Source: an uncultured Thermomicrobium sp.
GTDB taxonomy: Bacteria > Chloroflexota > Chloroflexia > Thermomicrobiales > Thermomicrobiaceae
Assembly: GCA_938028665.1 (NCBI GenBank)
Contig: CALIMB010000079.1
Location: 1-32,641, forward strand
Length of the DNA: 32,641 nucleotides
Direction of reading: 5' to 3'
Positions within the stretch are counted from its first letter, which is position 1. Each line of letters opens with the position of its first letter. The notes under the pieces were generated by a model. That model saw nothing but the letters and a program-made list of their open reading frames with translations, made no database searches and was not told the origin of the DNA. The position numbers and the translations under genes were made by a program. Positions 5,236-19,660 of the stretch are shown here, in pieces.

Positions 5236-6776
5236 ACCGGTTGCCGGATCGGGTGAGGGATTCCCATTGTGATGTCAAATTGAGGTGGGTCCGCTCTCAG
5301 AATGAGATCACGTCCCAGGTGTCGCAGGATGGCTCGGGCAACGCGCAACCCGGCCAGTGCCGTTGCAGGAATGGACTGGCCTGGAAAGACGCTATCCCCC
5401 ACAAGCCAGAAATGAGGAGCTAGTACAGTTGGCCAGGATGCACGGAGGTGAACCTGGGGGAATCCCCCTACCCACCCAAAAGGTCGGCGCGTGAAACGAG
5501 CAAAGGTGAGCGGAGTTCCGGGAAGAACCATGCGAACCGCCTCAGGAAGCCAGGGAAGAGCAGTCGCCGCTGTTTCGAGAATCCGCTCTTGATAGCGGGA
5601 TTTTTCGGCCTCGTAGGCAACACGATCGCGCATGGCGAACTCCCACCAATGCTGGTAGTTCGTATGCGTGCTTATGGTGGCAACCCGTCGACCGGATGGT
5701 GCACGCGTCGTGTCCCAGGCAGGACTCAACGAGACGAAGACCGAATTTCCCTCGCCCAGCGGACCGGGTCGTAGTATCTGATGATGCAGCGGTGCATCCG
5801 GCGGTATCTTTGCAGCATCCAGACTGACATAGAGGACAAAAGCACCCCACCCGGCTGGCGGTTTCTCAGTCCGCTTCCGGAGCCAGCTGGGAGCCTCTTG
5901 CCAGAGTCGCGTCAGGGCCCAAGGAGTGACGTTTGCAATCACCACGTCGGCGGAAAGCTCAAGTCCGCGCTGAGTGCGAATCTGCCATCCCTTCGAGCCG
6001 GCGCGGAGGTGCGTGACCTCCTGCCGATAGAACACCGTTCCACCATGCTCTTGGATGCTCTGTGCGAGCACGGAGGCGATCGCGCCGATACCGCCGGCTA
6101 CCTCAACCACACCGCTTCTCGGCAAATCGAGGGCTGCTGCGCCATAGAGTGCAAAAACATCTTGCGCCGTTGCCTGCGCGCTGATCAACAGTTGGGCGTC
6201 GATGAACTGGCGAAACCGAGGATCAGCGGGCAGATGGTGCGCCAGGGGAGTGAAAAGATCAACAAAGAGGCTCGGCGGAGGCCGTCGTTCTACCATCCAG
6301 GACAGAGCGATGCGCGCGGCTTCTCCCCATGTGCGGAGAGTACGAGGGCGAACTTCGGGAAGGCGAAGAGCAAAGTCCCAGAGGAGAGTGGCCGTGGTCT
6401 CTTGCCACTGCCAAAAGGGCAAACTCTTGGGAAAGACTTCAGCATACGTGGTCCATCGTCGGTCATCTCCCCAGCGTTCAACGACCGTGCCGTCCGGCAG
6501 ATGAACGACCATTGCCAAGGTGGTAGGTCGGACAGGCCAGGACGGAATGCCTGCTGCCCGACCTAGGAATTGCATCGGCTGTCCAGGGCCAAAACCGGCC
6601 GCCAACGTGGCACCAGCGTCAAACCAGTGACTCTGGTAGCGAAATGTCCCGGCACAGCCTCCCGGATAAATGTGAGCTTCAAGCACAGTGACATCGAGTC
6701 CCGCATGTGCCAGAGCTGCTGCTGCGCTGAGCCCACCAATACCAGAACCGATCACCGCAACAGAAGAGTTTTTCAT
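5223..6776 (-). CDS. FAD-dependent carotenoid desaturase/isomerase (CrtI/CrtISO superfamily)
   Basis: Probably oxidises or isomerises a carotenoid at the membrane, in keeping with pigmented Thermomicrobia. The 517-aa protein opens with the dinucleotide-binding fold IGSGIGGLSAAAALAHAGLD (about residues 9-28) followed by the ribose-binding acidic end VTVLEAH, then PGGCAGTF. It closes with the FAD-contact motif LVGDSVFPGQSIPATALAGL, which resembles carotenoid isomerases and CrtI-type desaturases. The exact substrate cannot be read from the sequence; phytoene-type desaturase, CrtISO or CrtD are all possible. The ATG at 6776 has a strong site (GGAAGGAGAAGGG) and overlaps the photolyase stop in an ATGA, so it is translationally coupled to that gene. 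The 3' end overlaps the PBP gene by 13 bases. Confidence 0.85.
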   Translation of the reverse strand: MKNSSVAVIGSGIGGLSAAAALAHAGLDVTVLEAHIYPGGCAGTFRYQSHWFDAGATLAAGFGPGQPMQFLGRAAGIPSWPVRPTTLAMVVHLPDGTVVERWGDDRRWTTYAEVFPKSLPFWQWQETTATLLWDFALRLPEVRPRTLRTWGEAARIALSWMVERRPPPSLFVDLFTPLAHHLPADPRFRQFIDAQLLISAQATAQDVFALYGAAALDLPRSGVVEVAGGIGAIASVLAQSIQEHGGTVFYRQEVTHLRAGSKGWQIRTQRGLELSADVVIANVTPWALTRLWQEAPSWLRKRTEKPPAGWGAFVLYVSLDAAKIPPDAPLHHQILRPGPLGEGNSVFVSLSPAWDTTRAPSGRRVATISTHTNYQHWWEFAMRDRVAYEAEKSRYQERILETAATALPWLPEAVRMVLPGTPLTFARFTRRPFGWVGGFPQVHLRASWPTVLAPHFWLVGDSVFPGQSIPATALAGLRVARAILRHLGRDLILRADPPQFDITMGIPHPIRQPVQSK

Positions 6777-8361: not shown

Positions 8362-9732
8362 TTAGTAGTGGATGCTGACTACTGACCCGATATGTAGGAA
8401 GTTCCAGAACCACTCAGCGTCACTATTCTGGAGACCGACACAACCGTTGGACGTGAAGTTGCCAAACTGTGAGGGCGGCGTCCAGTAGTTTCCGTGGAGT
8501 GCATAGCCACCCGCTTTGAAGTACTGTGTGAACTGCACGTTCGTGAGATAGTAATAGCCCGGTGAGCCCGGCGGGATTCCAACGGTGGCAGCGTCCATCG
8601 TTTCATTGCGAACGCGATAGAAAATCTGGAAGACTCCGACGGGTGTTTTGCCATCCCGTCCTGCAGTGATGATCGCCACGTAGACTGGCCGGTCACCGTC
8701 ATAGGCGACGGCGTAGAAGGAGCGGAGACTCACATCAACCCAGTGACCACCGAACCGTTGTGGTGGGATATCTGGAACCAGTGGTTCGACCCAAGCGGCC
8801 GCGATGTAACGACCATCCCCGACGTCGTACCAAATCGGATTACCCTCGACTGGATCACCAAGAGTCAGGCCCCGGATCGGCACCGGGTGGCGTGCATATG
8901 TCCAGGCGAGGATGGACGCGTTGTTGCTCGGGGCACTGCGGATAGCTAGTGTCCTTGCAGTCACACGCCCAAAGACGGCACCGTCATCGGTGGCCACAGC
9001 CCGTGACCATCGGTAGTCCAAGAGTTGCGGTGGAACCTCGATGGCGTCCGGACGCTTCGTGACTGGACGGGTGTCAACGCCACGTGCCTGGGCGTACTGC
9101 GCACCCAGCCGACCGAGGAGAACCTCGAATGGAGTTCCCACATTCTCTGGGTGATACTCAAAGCGTGCTCGTTCGAAGTACTGCACTGTGTAGAACTGTC
9201 CCGTGTCGGGATTCCATTCGGTGAACTCTTCTGAAATAGGGTAGCCAAAGGTATAGAGGCCGCCGTTCGCTTCCCAATAGGCTTTAAAGCCATATGCGAG
9301 TGTGTGACCAGTCTCTGGGAAGTATCGCCGCTGGAGATCACTGTTGGCGATCTGTGGGTCGATCTGGATAGGGCGAAAAGCTGCTTCTTCACGCCGGGAT
9401 GCGGCGATCCAATTGCCGAGAAGGGTTGCCAGGACGACATAGCGTGTTCCCTGGTGCTGTGGATGGTATTCAAAGCGCGCTCGCTCAAAGTACTGGACTA
9501 CCATGCCGTCCTGCGTAAATGGTTCGGTGATAGGAAAGCCAAAGGTCATGAGCCCCCCGTTACTTATCCAGGCCCAAAGGAAGTCACCGCTCAGGTGGTG
9601 CCCCGTCTGTGGGAAGTACAGCACGAGTTGATGCCAGCCGGCGGCAGCCATGGGCCGGGTTGTCGGGGCAGTGAGCGAGAGCAGAAACAAGCCAAGTAAC
9701 GCCACCGAACCGGAGACCAAGCGCCGTGCCAT
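8362..9732 (-). CDS. Secreted L,D-transpeptidase (YkuD) with two LGFP-like repeats and an SH3-like domain
   Basis: Likely cross-links or modifies peptidoglycan outside the cell. The 456-aa protein has an N-terminal signal or anchor segment (LVSGSVALLGLFLLSLTA, residues 5-22). Two repeats of about 75 residues follow, each running YFPxTGHxL ... NGGLxTFGxPI ... VQYFERARFEYHP; they resemble LGFP-type cell-wall repeats. Next is an SH3-like segment (TLAIRSAPSNNASILAW to AAAWVEPL), then the YkuD domain (about 330-456). The catalytic region has H413 and C431, but the usual SHGC is SNGC (428-431) and the following position is Gly where Asn or Arg is usual. AGGGAAGGGG precedes the ATG. The upstream gene encodes another secreted protein with related repeats. 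Confidence 0.85.
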   Translation of the reverse strand: MARRLVSGSVALLGLFLLSLTAPTTRPMAAAGWHQLVLYFPQTGHHLSGDFLWAWISNGGLMTFGFPITEPFTQDGMVVQYFERARFEYHPQHQGTRYVVLATLLGNWIAASRREEAAFRPIQIDPQIANSDLQRRYFPETGHTLAYGFKAYWEANGGLYTFGYPISEEFTEWNPDTGQFYTVQYFERARFEYHPENVGTPFEVLLGRLGAQYAQARGVDTRPVTKRPDAIEVPPQLLDYRWSRAVATDDGAVFGRVTARTLAIRSAPSNNASILAWTYARHPVPIRGLTLGDPVEGNPIWYDVGDGRYIAAAWVEPLVPDIPPQRFGGHWVDVSLRSFYAVAYDGDRPVYVAIITAGRDGKTPVGVFQIFYRVRNETMDAATVGIPPGSPGYYYLTNVQFTQYFKAGGYALHGNYWTPPSQFGNFTSNGCVGLQNSDAEWFWNFLHIGSVVSIHY

Positions 9733-15355: not shown

Positions 15356-16546
15356 ATGGAGCGACTTCCTCTCAGTGGTGTCCGTGTTGTCGATCTCACG
15401 CGCGTGATGGCTGGCCCGTACTGCACGATGCTGCTTGGTGATCTCGGCGCGGATGTGATCAAGATCGAGCGACCAGGGACGGGTGATGATACTCGGGCCT
15501 GGGGTCCGCCGTTCATCGACGGGGTAAGCGCATACTATCTCTCGGTCAATCGGAACAAGCGCAGTATCACGCTGGATCTCAAGCACCCAGCAGGCCAAGA
15601 GGTCTTTTGGCGACTCGTTGATCAGGCAGACGTCGTCGTCGAGAATTTCAGCCCGGGGACTGTGGAACGGCTGGGCATTGGCTATCAGGCTGTGTACAGT
15701 CGACGCCCGGAGATCATCTACTGCTCGATTTCTGGTTTTGGGCAAACGGGTCCAGGCAAGGATCGCACGGCGTATGACCTCATTGTCCAAGGAATGTCGG
15801 GGCTCATGAGCGTGACCGGTTTCCCGGACGGCGAGCCGGTTCGTTTCGGCGTGCCGATTGCCGATATCGGGGCGGGTATGTTCGCCGCGCTCGCCATCGT
15901 CGCGGCTCTCTACCATCGAGCGCAGACAGGTGAGGGGCAGTACATCGATACGTCGATGCTTGGTGGCCAGGTTGCTCTCCTGACGTATCAGGCCGGGATC
16001 TACTTTGCAACCGGCGAAGTACCGAAGCGTACCGGAAATGCGCATCCGATTGTCGCGCCCTACCAGACCTTTCGCAGTGCTGACGGCCACGTGAATATCG
16101 CAGCGGGCAACGATGCTATCTTCACACGAATGTGCCGCGCGTTAGGGCTTGATGACTTGCTCGACGATCCGCGCTTCGCGGCGAATGCTGGTCGAATTAC
16201 GAATCTTCCGGAACTCGTTGAACGAATCGAGGCGGTGACGCGCACCCTCACGACTGCTGAAATTGTGGCCCGTCTTGATGCTGCACAAGTCCCGTGTGGG
16301 CCGATCTACACCGTGCCTGAGGTCTTCGCCGATCCACAAGTGCAGCACCTAGAGCTTCGCCAGCGCATTCCACACCCGACTTTAGGGGTGATTGATCAAA
16401 CGGGCTTCCCCTGGCGGTTCTCGCGAACACCAGCGGTGATTCGGCGGCATCCACCGCTGCTCGGCGAACACACTGACGAGGTACTGCGGGCTCTCGGTTA
16501 CACCAGTGATCAGATCGCGGCGATGCGCCAAGTGGGAGCGATCTAG
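15356..16546 (+). CDS. Class III CoA-transferase (CaiB/BaiF family)
   Basis: Transfers CoA between carboxylic acids in the cytoplasm. The 396-aa length is normal. The N-terminus LSGVRVVDLTRVMAGPYCTM and LGDLGADVIKIERPGTGDD are typical of the family, as is NRNKRSITLDLKHPAG. The catalytic Asp, which forms the acyl anhydride in studied members, is D141 in RTAYDLIVQGMSG. No partner gene (acyl-CoA dehydrogenase, racemase or hydratase) lies next to it, so the substrate is unknown; formyl-, succinyl- and carnitine-type transferases all share these motifs. ATG 15356 is preferred because GGGAGG lies 7 bases upstream; ATG 15335 would put that site inside the gene. The stop overlaps the end of the convergent ECF gene by 4 bases. 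Confidence 0.92.
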   Translation: MERLPLSGVRVVDLTRVMAGPYCTMLLGDLGADVIKIERPGTGDDTRAWGPPFIDGVSAYYLSVNRNKRSITLDLKHPAGQEVFWRLVDQADVVVENFSPGTVERLGIGYQAVYSRRPEIIYCSISGFGQTGPGKDRTAYDLIVQGMSGLMSVTGFPDGEPVRFGVPIADIGAGMFAALAIVAALYHRAQTGEGQYIDTSMLGGQVALLTYQAGIYFATGEVPKRTGNAHPIVAPYQTFRSADGHVNIAAGNDAIFTRMCRALGLDDLLDDPRFAANAGRITNLPELVERIEAVTRTLTTAEIVARLDAAQVPCGPIYTVPEVFADPQVQHLELRQRIPHPTLGVIDQTGFPWRFSRTPAVIRRHPPLLGEHTDEVLRALGYTSDQIAAMRQVGAI

Positions 16547-17358
16547 TCACTTGGGATGAGTTTGTGCCACGGCCGCCAGCTCAGGCGGCCTCGCCACCGT
16601 TCCAGCGCTTGACACACCGTCTCACCCAGGAGCAGGACCAGAATGACGTTCCCAAGGGCGCGCGTACTGTCGAAGAGTAGGGAAGTGGCGAGGTAGAAGC
16701 GGGCGTAGGCCTGGAGGGTTGCACTGAGCGACATCCCTGGAGTCCAGTAGAGCCCACCGCTTTCGGCAACGCCTGGTGCGGCGAACGGCCAGAACCAGAG
16801 GTTCATCAGTGCACCGAAGAGAAAGCCCCAGACGGCTCCAAACGCAGCCAGCCAGAATCGCCGAGCCCTTCCTGCACGCCGTGGTAACCAGCCGGCGGTG
16901 GCACCCATCCAACCGGCGGAGAGCATTTGGAAAGGTAACCAGGGACCTATCCCGCCAGTTAGGGCAGCAGAGGTAAGCAATGTCAAAGAACCCATCAAGA
17001 ATCCAAATCGTGTGCCAAAGACGTAGCCGCTCGCGATGATGAGCAGAAAGATCGGGCTTGCACCGATAAAACTGGGAATGAAACGCAAAACGGAGTCGAT
17101 CGCAACGAGTACCGCGAGGAGAGCGACCGCACGGGAGTACTCCGTCTGAGCGAAGTGGCCATCAGTGAGCTGCGTAAGCAGCACAACAAGTGAGACGATC
17201 GCCAGGAGCGTAAACAGCAACACGATTTCGATGCCACGCTGTCGAGGAACTTCAGCACCGAGCGCCGCGAGCAGGAATGGGTAGAGGAAGGCGGCAATTC
17301 CGCCAATGGTGGCAAGTACGAGGCTCAGATGGCTCGTCAGGGTTGCAAGGCGACTCAT
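16543..17358 (-). CDS. ECF transporter S-component, CbrT-like (substrate-binding membrane subunit)
   Basis: Membrane protein that would capture a vitamin and pass it through an energy-coupling-factor transporter. The 271-aa protein has about seven or eight hydrophobic segments, including an N-terminal pair (LSLVLATIGGIAAFLYPFLL; IEIVLLFTLLAIVSLVVLL) before the S-component core. The core has RFIPSFIGASPIFLLIIASG, FGFLMGSLTLLTSAALTGGI and PWLPFQMLSAGWMGATAGWL, as in CbrT-type S-components linked to cobalamin. No EcfA ATPase or EcfT scaffold lies nearby, so it probably shares a module encoded elsewhere. The ATG overlaps the stop of the BtuF-like gene (ATGA), giving translational coupling. B12 as substrate is inferred from this neighbour and the family. 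Confidence 0.78.
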   Translation of the reverse strand: MSRLATLTSHLSLVLATIGGIAAFLYPFLLAALGAEVPRQRGIEIVLLFTLLAIVSLVVLLTQLTDGHFAQTEYSRAVALLAVLVAIDSVLRFIPSFIGASPIFLLIIASGYVFGTRFGFLMGSLTLLTSAALTGGIGPWLPFQMLSAGWMGATAGWLPRRAGRARRFWLAAFGAVWGFLFGALMNLWFWPFAAPGVAESGGLYWTPGMSLSATLQAYARFYLATSLLFDSTRALGNVILVLLLGETVCQALERWRGRLSWRPWHKLIPSD

Positions 17359-18287
17359 GCCGACGGAGAGGAAGGTACCGGCCGAACCGGTGCAGCATGC
17401 CGCTGGGGATCCAGGACGCAGCGCTCCGGATGAAAGAGTGCGGTCAGAATTTCCACACCATGGATCACTCGTGGACCAGGACGGCTGAAGAAGTGGGTTG
17501 CATCAACAGCCCATACTGCCTCCCGAATGACCGCGGGTGTACGGCGCAGTGCTGGATGTGCAAGTAGTTCGCTGCTGAGTCGCAGTGTTCCCTCAAGATC
17601 ATAACCGCAGGGCATCGCAACCAGAATATCTGGAGCGGCTTCGGCCACACGTTCCCACGTCACCGTGAAGGAGGGATGCCCGAGGATGCCAAGGACATCC
17701 ACACCGCCAGCGTGCGCCACCATCTCCGGGACCCAGTGGCCAGCGACAATCGGCGGATCGAGCCACTCGAGACAAACGACGCGCGGTCGGGTTGCTGGCT
17801 CACCCACGCGCTCGGTAATCCACGCGAGTCTCCGCTCCAGAGCGGCGACCAGAGCATGTGCAGTGTTGGGGCGATTGGTAGCCTCACCAACGGTGAGGAT
17901 TGAGTCAAAGATCTCTCGCAGGGTCGTCGGCTCAACGGAGACAACCCGCGGTGGCCGAGGAAGGGTGGCGGCGAGTCGGCAGACGTCATCGACTGAGACG
18001 GCGCAGACCGGGCAGAGTGCTTGGGTAAGAATCAGATCAGGCTCAAGCGCTCGAAGGCGTACGACATCGAGTTCGTAGAGCGGTAGTCCCGCCGCCACGC
18101 GTTCTCGCACAGCGGCGTCGATCTCCGCCTGAGTCAGCCCAGAAGGAAGCAGGCTACGCGTCACGCGCGGCTTGGAGCGGACAGCGGGGGGATAGTCACA
18201 CTCATGTGTGACGGCAACAAGTTCGTCGGCTAAGCCGAGTGCCCAGACGATCTCAGTTAAGCTTGGGAGCAGCGAGACGATGCGCAC
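17355..18287 (-). CDS. BtuF-like cobalamin-binding protein without signal peptide
   Basis: 310-aa protein of the periplasmic-binding family for cobalamin and iron chelates. It starts RIVSLLPSLTEIVWALGLAD and holds the marker THECDYPP, then a second lobe (RVVCLEWLDPPIVAGHWVPE; PDILVAMPCGYDLEGTL). The GTG at 18287 was chosen because the fold begins at once and AAGGA lies about 9 bases upstream; upstream in-frame codons overlap the HxlR gene and do not form a signal peptide. A cytoplasmic location is therefore likely, which is unusual for an uptake binding protein; such signal-less homologues are often annotated simply as cobalamin-binding proteins. It follows hxlR by 19 bases and is coupled to the ECF S-component gene. 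Confidence 0.82.
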   Translation of the reverse strand: MRIVSLLPSLTEIVWALGLADELVAVTHECDYPPAVRSKPRVTRSLLPSGLTQAEIDAAVRERVAAGLPLYELDVVRLRALEPDLILTQALCPVCAVSVDDVCRLAATLPRPPRVVSVEPTTLREIFDSILTVGEATNRPNTAHALVAALERRLAWITERVGEPATRPRVVCLEWLDPPIVAGHWVPEMVAHAGGVDVLGILGHPSFTVTWERVAEAAPDILVAMPCGYDLEGTLRLSSELLAHPALRRTPAVIREAVWAVDATHFFSRPGPRVIHGVEILTALFHPERCVLDPQRHAAPVRPVPSSPSA

Positions 18288-18306
18288 TGCCTCGAATCCT
18301 TGTGGT

Positions 18307-18687
18307 TCATGCGGTAGCTGTACCAGATGCGTTGTGGTCAATCTTCGCGTCCTCGGCAGATGCAGGCTCCGGCGCAAGCCACCGTTCACCGTACTCGCGT
18401 AACTGCTCAATAACCGGGAGTGCTGCCCGTCCCTTCTCAGTCAGTGTGTACTCCACCCGCGGAGGAATCTCGGCGTATGGATGCCGTGTCACAAGTCCCT
18501 CTGCCTCCAGATAACGCAGCCGCTGGGACAACACAGCAGGACTGATCCCAGTGCCGACCAAGAGTTCCTGGAAGCGCCGGTTCCCGTGTGCCAGTTCGCG
18601 CAGGATCAAGAGCACCCAGTGATCGCCGAGTAAACGTGCCGCACGAGCGATTGGGCAGGTCGCTTCTTGATGCGTGTCGCGTCGCAT
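18307..18687 (-). CDS. HxlR-family winged-helix transcription regulator
   Basis: 126-aa DNA-binding protein. The family pattern is clear: C11PIARAARLLGDHWVLLILR, ELAHGNRRFQELL, ISPAVLSQRLRYLEAEGLV (recognition helix region) and the wing RVEYTLTEKGRAALPVI. The single N-terminal Cys11 is at the position that senses redox or electrophiles in YodB/HypR-type members, so thiol stress sensing is plausible but unproven. The ATG at 18687 follows GAGGATGAGCG. It heads the operon with the BtuF-like and ECF genes and is divergent from the YceI gene. A 5-bp dyad on the YceI promoter is a candidate binding site. Confidence 0.9.
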   Translation of the reverse strand: MRRDTHQEATCPIARAARLLGDHWVLLILRELAHGNRRFQELLVGTGISPAVLSQRLRYLEAEGLVTRHPYAEIPPRVEYTLTEKGRAALPVIEQLREYGERWLAPEPASAEDAKIDHNASGTATA

Positions 18688-19037: not shown

Positions 19038-19046
19038 ATCCGTAGT
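19030..19046. promoter_or_regulatory. Operator-like dyad on the -10 box (candidate HxlR site)
   Basis: ACTAC (19030-19034), seven bases, GTAGT (19042-19046) form a perfect inverted repeat covering the -10 element and the likely start point. It resembles the TACT-N7-AGTA boxes described for the HxlR-family repressor YodB. A second dyad, CGTAG-TTG-CTACG (19041-19053), overlaps it. Binding by the adjacent HxlR protein is inference. Confidence 0.55.
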
Positions 19047-19096
19047 TGCTACGAAGTGAGTAGGAAAGCAGTGAGTCGATGGAAGGGAGGACAGGT

Positions 19097-19660
19097 GTGA
19101 CGACTGTTGCGCCGGAGTTAACGGGTCTTGCGCGCTGGGAGATCGATCCAGCGCACAGCCAGATTACCTTCGCCGTTCGGCACCTCATGGTGACGACGGT
19201 CCGTGGTCAGTTTAAGAAGTTCTCCGGTTGGGTCGAGTTCGACCCGGCACAACCGGAGAACGGGAATGTGGAAGTGACCATCGATGCAGCCAGTATCGAC
19301 ACACGTGAAGAGCGACGTGATGCGCATCTCCGGTCGGCCGATTTTCTCGATGTCGAACACTCTCCCACAATTACCTTCGTGAGCAAGCGTGTCGAACCAC
19401 TCGGTGGGAATCGCTATCGCGTGATCGGTGACCTCACGATCCGTGGCGTCACCAAGGAAATTGCACTGGAGGCGGAATTCCACGGTGTTGCAAAGGATCC
19501 CTGGGGTGGCGTGCGAGCGGGTTTCGAGGCACGCACGAAGATTAACCGGCATGACTTCGGCGCAAGTTGGAACGTGGCGCTCGAGGCTGGTGGTTGGTTG
19601 GTCGGCGAGACGGTGGACATCTTCATTGAGGTGGAGCTTGTCCGTAAGGATGCCGCCTGA
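19097..19660 (+). CDS. YceI-family lipid-binding protein, no signal peptide
   Basis: 187-aa member of the YceI/TT1927b family, a lipocalin-like barrel that binds polyisoprenoid chains in studied homologues. Typical blocks are WEIDPAHSQITFAVRHLMVT (start), GWVEFDPAQPENGNVEVTID, SIDTREERRDAHLRSADFLD, GDLTIRGVTKEIALEAEFHG and FEARTKINRHDFGASWN. There is no signal peptide, so it is probably cytoplasmic, unlike E. coli YceI. GTG 19097 is preferred since GGGAGG lies 6 bases upstream; ATG 19079 would place that site inside the gene. It has its own promoter with a dyad and a strong terminator, so it forms a single-gene unit opposite the HxlR operon. Binding of a carotenoid or quinone-like lipid is possible but not shown. 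Confidence 0.92.
   Translation: MTTVAPELTGLARWEIDPAHSQITFAVRHLMVTTVRGQFKKFSGWVEFDPAQPENGNVEVTIDAASIDTREERRDAHLRSADFLDVEHSPTITFVSKRVEPLGGNRYRVIGDLTIRGVTKEIALEAEFHGVAKDPWGGVRAGFEARTKINRHDFGASWNVALEAGGWLVGETVDIFIEVELVRKDAA

Follow-up and report, generated by a model that had tools for sequence, protein, structure and literature searches.

We analysed a 32,641-nucleotide stretch of DNA (the window) that is the whole of contig G000:C79 (CALIMB010000079.1) from an uncultured Thermomicrobium sp. The genome to which it belongs (assembly GCA_938028665.1) comprises 2.78 Mb and is 99.33% complete. On the minus strand of the window lies a run of three genes, encoding an HxlR-family regulator, a protein resembling BtuF and an S-component of the energy-coupling factor (ECF) type. 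All three match their Pfam families above the cut-offs, at the place given in a preliminary description of this DNA.

18307 to 18687, minus strand: HxlR-family regulator, first gene of the run (PF01638, 93.2 bits; cut-off 20.8)
17355 to 18287, minus strand: BtuF-like protein, 310 amino acids from a GTG codon at 18287 (PF01497, 69.5 bits; cut-off 27.5)
16543 to 17358, minus strand: ECF-type S-component, 271 amino acids (PF12822, 49.1 bits; cut-off 30.7)
17355 to 17358, minus strand: four-nucleotide overlap of the BtuF-like stop and the S-component start, read from the coordinates

The stop/start overlap agrees with the translational coupling that had been proposed for the BtuF-like and S-component genes. 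The overlap is four nucleotides long in six of seven loci examined in the same family and one nucleotide long in the remaining one, and the order BtuF-like gene, then S gene is kept in all 16 genomes of the family that have the S gene. The BtuF-like gene was listed as an open reading frame of 351 amino acids with a TTG start at 18410. This start is probably too long, because homologous sequences begin at the first strand of the domain (MRIVSLLPS), which here points to the GTG codon at 18287. With that start, 19 nucleotides separate the BtuF-like gene from the HxlR gene.

The S-component has an extra hydrophobic N-terminal region ahead of its PF12822 domain (residues 77 to 244). When a profile of 26 homologues was searched against solved structures, the top match was the CbrT chain 6fnp_A (E 4.4e-5), and the next best were folate S-components (FolT; E 0.07 and 0.12). 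Entry 6FNP is ECF-CbrT, the ECF transporter for vitamin B12 from Lactobacillus delbrueckii (PMC5997447). The profile match makes the window protein distant kin of CbrT, which in that transporter is the subunit for cobalamin; this is a statement of kinship only. The S gene is present in 84 of 158 genomes of the class, and an EcfT gene of one particular type, which we also find on contig C100 of the window genome, occurs in 74 of these 84, compared with 5 of the 74 genomes lacking the S gene. The corresponding Fisher P of 4e-27 overstates the evidence and is no true probability, because the genomes are related. In sister families the operon of the S gene also includes a cobalamin riboswitch and EcfT. 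Of the S loci outside the family, seven were scanned for RNA families. Six of them (L090, L091, L092, L097, L098 and L099), chosen because they show the EcfT/toroid cluster, carry a cobalamin riboswitch above the cut-off, all together with EcfT and a gene for a large alpha/alpha-toroid protein, and in L090, L091, L092 and L098 a double ATPase is part of the cluster as well; the scan of the seventh, L080, gave no cobalamin riboswitch. In another family of the same order, a class II, B12-dependent ribonucleotide reductase is found near the place of the S gene in L080, L081 and L086, where the S gene of L086 was missed by the gene caller and placed by the class-wide search. A differing regulatory setting is seen in L080, L081, L082, L085 and L087 of that family: the S gene is divergent from, or lies beside, a long gene of one family, which in L081 encodes a PucR-type regulator.

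Contig C100 of the window genome holds a cluster of the same type minus the S gene, consisting of a riboswitch-like element, the toroid, a Thr/Pro-rich protein, EcfT and a double ATPase of 534 amino acids. The cobalamin-riboswitch-like element (9328 to 9470) scores 25.9 bits, below the cut-off of 31.5, and EcfT (331 amino acids) scores 23.7 bits, just below the cut-off of 25, its relatives scoring 50.7 and 33.3. At positions 6731 to 9165 of C100 (locus L071, minus strand), a leader-bearing alpha/alpha-toroid protein comes before the Thr/Pro-rich protein, and EcfT and the double ATPase follow. The Thr/Pro-rich protein contains cysteine, has a hydrophobic C-terminal end and matched no family in Pfam or NCBIfam. 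It is possible that the secreted toroid and this protein form an outer pair for B12 capture. Their resemblance to transcobalamin is one seen by eye only: neither of them matched DUF4430, and no kinship with transcobalamin or intrinsic factor was found, neither profile A5 (at E 0.01) nor profile A6 (at E 10) listing a solved transcobalamin chain. Further ECF modules are present on C4 (riboflavin type) and C102 (CbiM type), and one reading is that the remote C100 module may serve the S-component of the window. The preliminary description had called the S-component lone and had seen no ATPase or scaffold gene. This is correct for the neighbourhood, but the EcfT and double ATPase on C100 rule it out for the genome, and the S-component probably belongs to a split transporter. 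An S-component that appears lone can thus have its motor on another contig. The match of the profile to CbrT, the riboswitch operons and the B12 regulon context of the homologues point to cobalamin as the substrate, and the system is very probably a split B12 ECF transporter, with a cobalamin-specific S-component and a separate module.

The gene content of the organism suggests a need for imported B12. No match to FecCD, the btuC-type permease family, was found in this nearly complete genome, under a search in which the control rings in 13 of 14 cases, and CobS, the sole biosynthetic enzyme tested, is absent. A PduO-type adenosyltransferase is present, as are a class II ribonucleotide reductase on C37, a protein with a B12-binding domain on C61 and, on C85, a second ribonucleotide reductase downstream of a cobalamin riboswitch of 86 bits. 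The large chain of the latter has PF00317 and PF02867. Assignment of this riboswitch-controlled enzyme to class II was ruled out by the small chain encoded downstream (PF00268), which makes it class I. A riboswitch-controlled class I enzyme together with a class II enzyme is the pattern of a B12 user that keeps the B12-free isozyme repressed as long as B12 is available. Since CobS and a btuC-type permease are missing, yet both reductases and the adenosyltransferase are there, the organism probably imports B12.

The BtuF-like protein is closest in sequence to BtuF. A profile of its family gave Vibrio cholerae BtuF (5ysc) as the best match (E 7e-28), followed by heme- and iron-binding proteins, and its score against the NCBIfam equivalog for BtuF was 28.2 bits against a cut-off of 234. 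The AlphaFold2 model (predicted local distance difference test score, pLDDT, 95.2) has the class III binding-protein fold, and a Pfam scan found no DNA-binding domain. To place the protein in its family we scanned one contig collection, which gave at least 590 relatives, and analysed the best 80 loci, which come from many phyla. In eight of the 80, the simple gene caller called no BtuF-family gene; from the 76 genes called, four that bear a signal peptide (by eye) and two over-long ones were removed for the alignment (A4). Cysteines C30, C92, C95 and C227 are conserved in all 71 aligned members; because the patterns used to fetch the loci contain H-x-C-D and E-W-x-D-P, conservation at these residues is to some extent built in, and C92, C95, C227, H184, R153 and R269 lie outside the patterns. 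All four cysteines are missing from each of the four signal-bearing BtuF paralogues in the same loci. Within the class they are found in 17 of 19 members. The exceptions are second BtuF-like copies (L111, 6940 to 7812; L112, 2479 to 3369), which have lost C95 and C227 together and kept C30 and C92. As the two were lost together, C95 and C227 may work as a pair.

Whichever start is used, the protein of the window has no hydrophobic leader ahead of its domain; the preliminary description had called it signal-less. Hydropathy of the N terminus does not discriminate in this family, as the domain itself opens with a hydrophobic strand and helix: signal-less members have a median of 1.59 and reach 2.07, overlapping the four signal-bearing ones at 1.87 to 2.51. 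We therefore counted the residues available between an in-frame stop and the start of the domain in 66 homologues (five signal-less members that do not fit the motif were omitted and one contig-edge case was set aside). In 37 of them fewer than 20 residues are possible, which leaves no room for a signal peptide; the other 29 have room for at least 20, and L148 has a hydrophobic run before the called start. From these sequences, the family is widespread and apparently cytoplasmic.

A cobalamin riboswitch is present in 10 of the 80 loci, and in eight (L117, L120, L121, L124, L138, L154, L162 and L184) it lies upstream of the BtuF-like gene on the same strand. A TonB receptor, DUF6580, FecCD, a BtuD-like ATPase or a PP-loop enzyme is found nearby in 19 loci, and three further ones (L114 to L116) have an S gene, giving 22 loci with B12-related neighbours. 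In L117, L124 and L139, genes for a signal-bearing BtuF, for BtuD and for BtuC come after that of the signal-less BtuF-like protein. The PP-loop enzyme belongs to the Diphthami_syn_2 family (PF01902) and recurs in BtuF-like operons at seven loci (L120, 2987 to 3745; L121, 5225 to 5917; also L129, L136, L138, L162 and L191). In L117 (4512 to 5828), L124 (4471 to 5928), L139 (3 to 1223) and L184 (2124 to 3602), a gene for a protein of 406 to 492 amino acids separates the BtuF-like gene from that of the TonB receptor. The one member scanned had no Pfam match; repeats that look propeller-like by eye suggest that it is perhaps a surface B12 binder.

DUF6580 (PF20221) adjoins the BtuF-like gene in eight of the 80 loci and is one gene away in a ninth. 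Among the riboswitch operons, it stands beside that gene in L120 (6984 to 7511), L121 (6986 to 7510), L162 (5424 to 5990) and others. In the reverse direction, 10 of 14 DUF6580 genes have a BtuF-like gene within 1.5 kb, a count made in the genomes of 50 of the 80 loci, which were hand-chosen and include the nine known pairs. The model of DUF6580 (pLDDT 81) gave S-components as best matches in Foldseek, but weakly (E 0.27 and 0.94). In VIA-align, S-components fill ranks 1 to 22 (Z 14.7 to 10.1), and BtuM (8c7p) aligns with a Z of 14.0 and 2.8 Å over 156 residues, at 20% identity in the structure alignment. DUF6580 is thus predicted from its model to have the S-component fold and is a possible candidate for a B12 transporter. 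Kinship to BtuM by sequence was considered and not found, the DUF6580 profile having picked up no BtuM chain at E 1. A literature search, mostly outside subscription journals, found nothing on DUF6580, and nothing to the point on BtuF-like proteins with cobalamin or on transcobalamin-like proteins with a riboswitch.

Upstream of the run, a divergent gene and a palindrome bear on the role of the regulator.

19079 to 19660, plus strand: YceI-like gene, divergent from HxlR (PF04264, 184.2 bits)
19041 to 19053, no strand: perfect 5-3-5 palindrome, an inverted repeat of CGTAG, candidate HxlR operator at the yceI promoter

An HxlR gene was found upstream of the BtuF-like gene by tblastn in 10 of 17 family genomes. 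It is missing at the other seven loci, one of which is cut by a contig end, and in G106 and G111 to G114 it is absent though the BtuF-S pair is kept. Five congeners share this palindrome of 13 bases unchanged, and in them it lies about 25 to 50 nucleotides from yceI and about 105 to 355 from HxlR (about 350 here); the expectation is 0.6 matches with at most two mismatches per mononucleotide-shuffled window. No operator conserved upstream of HxlR appeared in the alignment. The palindrome is likely the operator of the HxlR/YceI pair, and HxlR probably serves yceI first; read-through from HxlR into the BtuF-S pair is possible. The HxlR switch over the vitamin genes that the preliminary description proposed therefore finds little backing, the regulator being absent from seven family loci and the sole conserved palindrome lying at yceI.

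The best reading of the locus is that it is a piece of a split B12 system, in which we give the BtuF-like protein about an even chance of being an internal cobalamin acceptor or processing protein. Homology and context suggest that the S-component would bind cobalamin and work with the EcfT and double ATPase of C100. The cytoplasmic BtuF-like protein would then take the corrinoid leaving the S-component. Through its conserved cysteines and histidines, the BtuF-like protein may hold the cobalt, or may reduce it and strip the upper ligand, and the corrinoid would be handed on to the PduO-type adenosyltransferase. The consumers at the end of this route, the class II and the riboswitch-controlled class I ribonucleotide reductases, are known as genes only. 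A broader proposal is more tentative: the four-cysteine family could be a general cytoplasmic receiver of corrinoids entering via S-component-type proteins, its pairing with two or more S-fold families having arisen separately each time and its cysteines removing the upper ligand or reducing the cobalt, as a bacterial counterpart of CblC. The S-fold partners would be CbrT-like proteins in the relatives of Thermomicrobium and DUF6580 in several other phyla. Several observations weigh against a B12 role for the BtuF-like protein, or against parts of the system around it. In 58 of the 80 loci, none of the B12-transport neighbours searched for is present. Across the class, co-occurrence of the S gene and a strong BtuF-like gene stays at the level of chance (29 genomes have both; Fisher P 0.49), and they are adjacent in 16 of these 29, all of one family, and in G100 of another; outside the family, this divergent pair in G100 is the only adjacency among 13 genomes with both. 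Because adjacency is all but limited to the family and there is no class-wide co-occurrence, the coupling is a lineage trait, with each protein able to work alone. Structure comparison ranks heme-binding proteins level with BtuF as matches to the model. The riboswitch and EcfT on C100 both score slightly below their cut-offs, and the CbiM-type system on C102, which hints at cobalt or nickel uptake, fits less readily with an organism importing only finished B12.

Some of these points are also what one would see if the BtuF-like protein were a general cytoplasmic metal, iron-sulfur or tetrapyrrole protein and its S neighbour an accident of the lineage: the many loci without B12-transport neighbours, the lack of class-wide co-occurrence, the heme-binding matches and the varied neighbours at other loci, such as DNA ligase, squalene/phytoene synthase and CBS/CNNM genes. 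We regard this as rather unlikely, as it leaves aside the cobalamin riboswitches in 10 loci, the adjacency to DUF6580 and TonB receptors repeated in several phyla and the pairing with the S gene in every family genome that has it. The earlier suggestion that the BtuF-like protein receives or senses the incoming vitamin inside the cell remains its best reading; a B12 sensor that acts together with HxlR is a rival of its own. A periplasmic-binding-protein fold is able to sense ligands, and HxlR lies 19 nucleotides upstream on the same strand in the window and is present in 10 of the 17 family genomes, so a B12 sensor regulating uptake together with HxlR is conceivable; it is improbable in view of the genomes that keep the BtuF-S pair and have no HxlR, the lack of a DNA-binding domain and a conserved palindrome that sits at yceI and not upstream of HxlR. 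The absence of a FecCD gene from the genome would suit a decaying BtuFCD operon that has lost its permease, ATPase and signal peptide. This we consider highly improbable and largely refuted already: the leader is absent in homologues of several phyla too, the family has its own four-cysteine signature, the reading frames are intact with the pairing kept in 16 genomes, and signal-less members coexist with complete BtuFDC sets that hold their own signal-bearing BtuF, which argues against a broken ATP-binding cassette operon.

Little is known about how bacteria, once they have imported cobalamin, receive it in the cell, reduce it and remove its upper ligand. The four-cysteine BtuF-fold family offers a concrete candidate for its internal reception that can be purified and tested, and the pairing of BtuF-like and S-fold proteins, which recurs in distant bacteria with DUF6580, may show how cells receive imported B12. 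Compared with known systems, the BtuF-like protein shares its fold and closest sequence kinship with BtuF of BtuCDF (1n4a, 5ysc), but it lacks the signal peptide, has four extra conserved cysteines and occurs in a genome without a BtuC-type permease. The S-component belongs to the same PF12822 family as that of ECF-CbrT and, like it, needs an EcfT/ATPase module, which the genome has; it differs in its extra hydrophobic N-terminal region, in having the double ATPase on another contig and in its coupling to a BtuF-like gene. In animals, MMACHC/CblC is the cytoplasmic B12 acceptor and decyanase. The role proposed for the BtuF-like protein, a cytoplasmic acceptor that would process the upper ligand, is similar by analogy, though the folds of the two are not known to be related. 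BtuM, a membrane protein in contrast to the BtuF-like protein, offers a likeness as a small S-fold protein that combines B12 with thiol chemistry. DUF6580 has the same predicted fold as BtuM, but its profile gave no sequence match to it and other S-components score equally in structure. The publication on BtuM describes a solitary S-component-like B12 transporter that removes cyanide via a cysteine, and it names MMACHC/CblC as well (PMC6072759).

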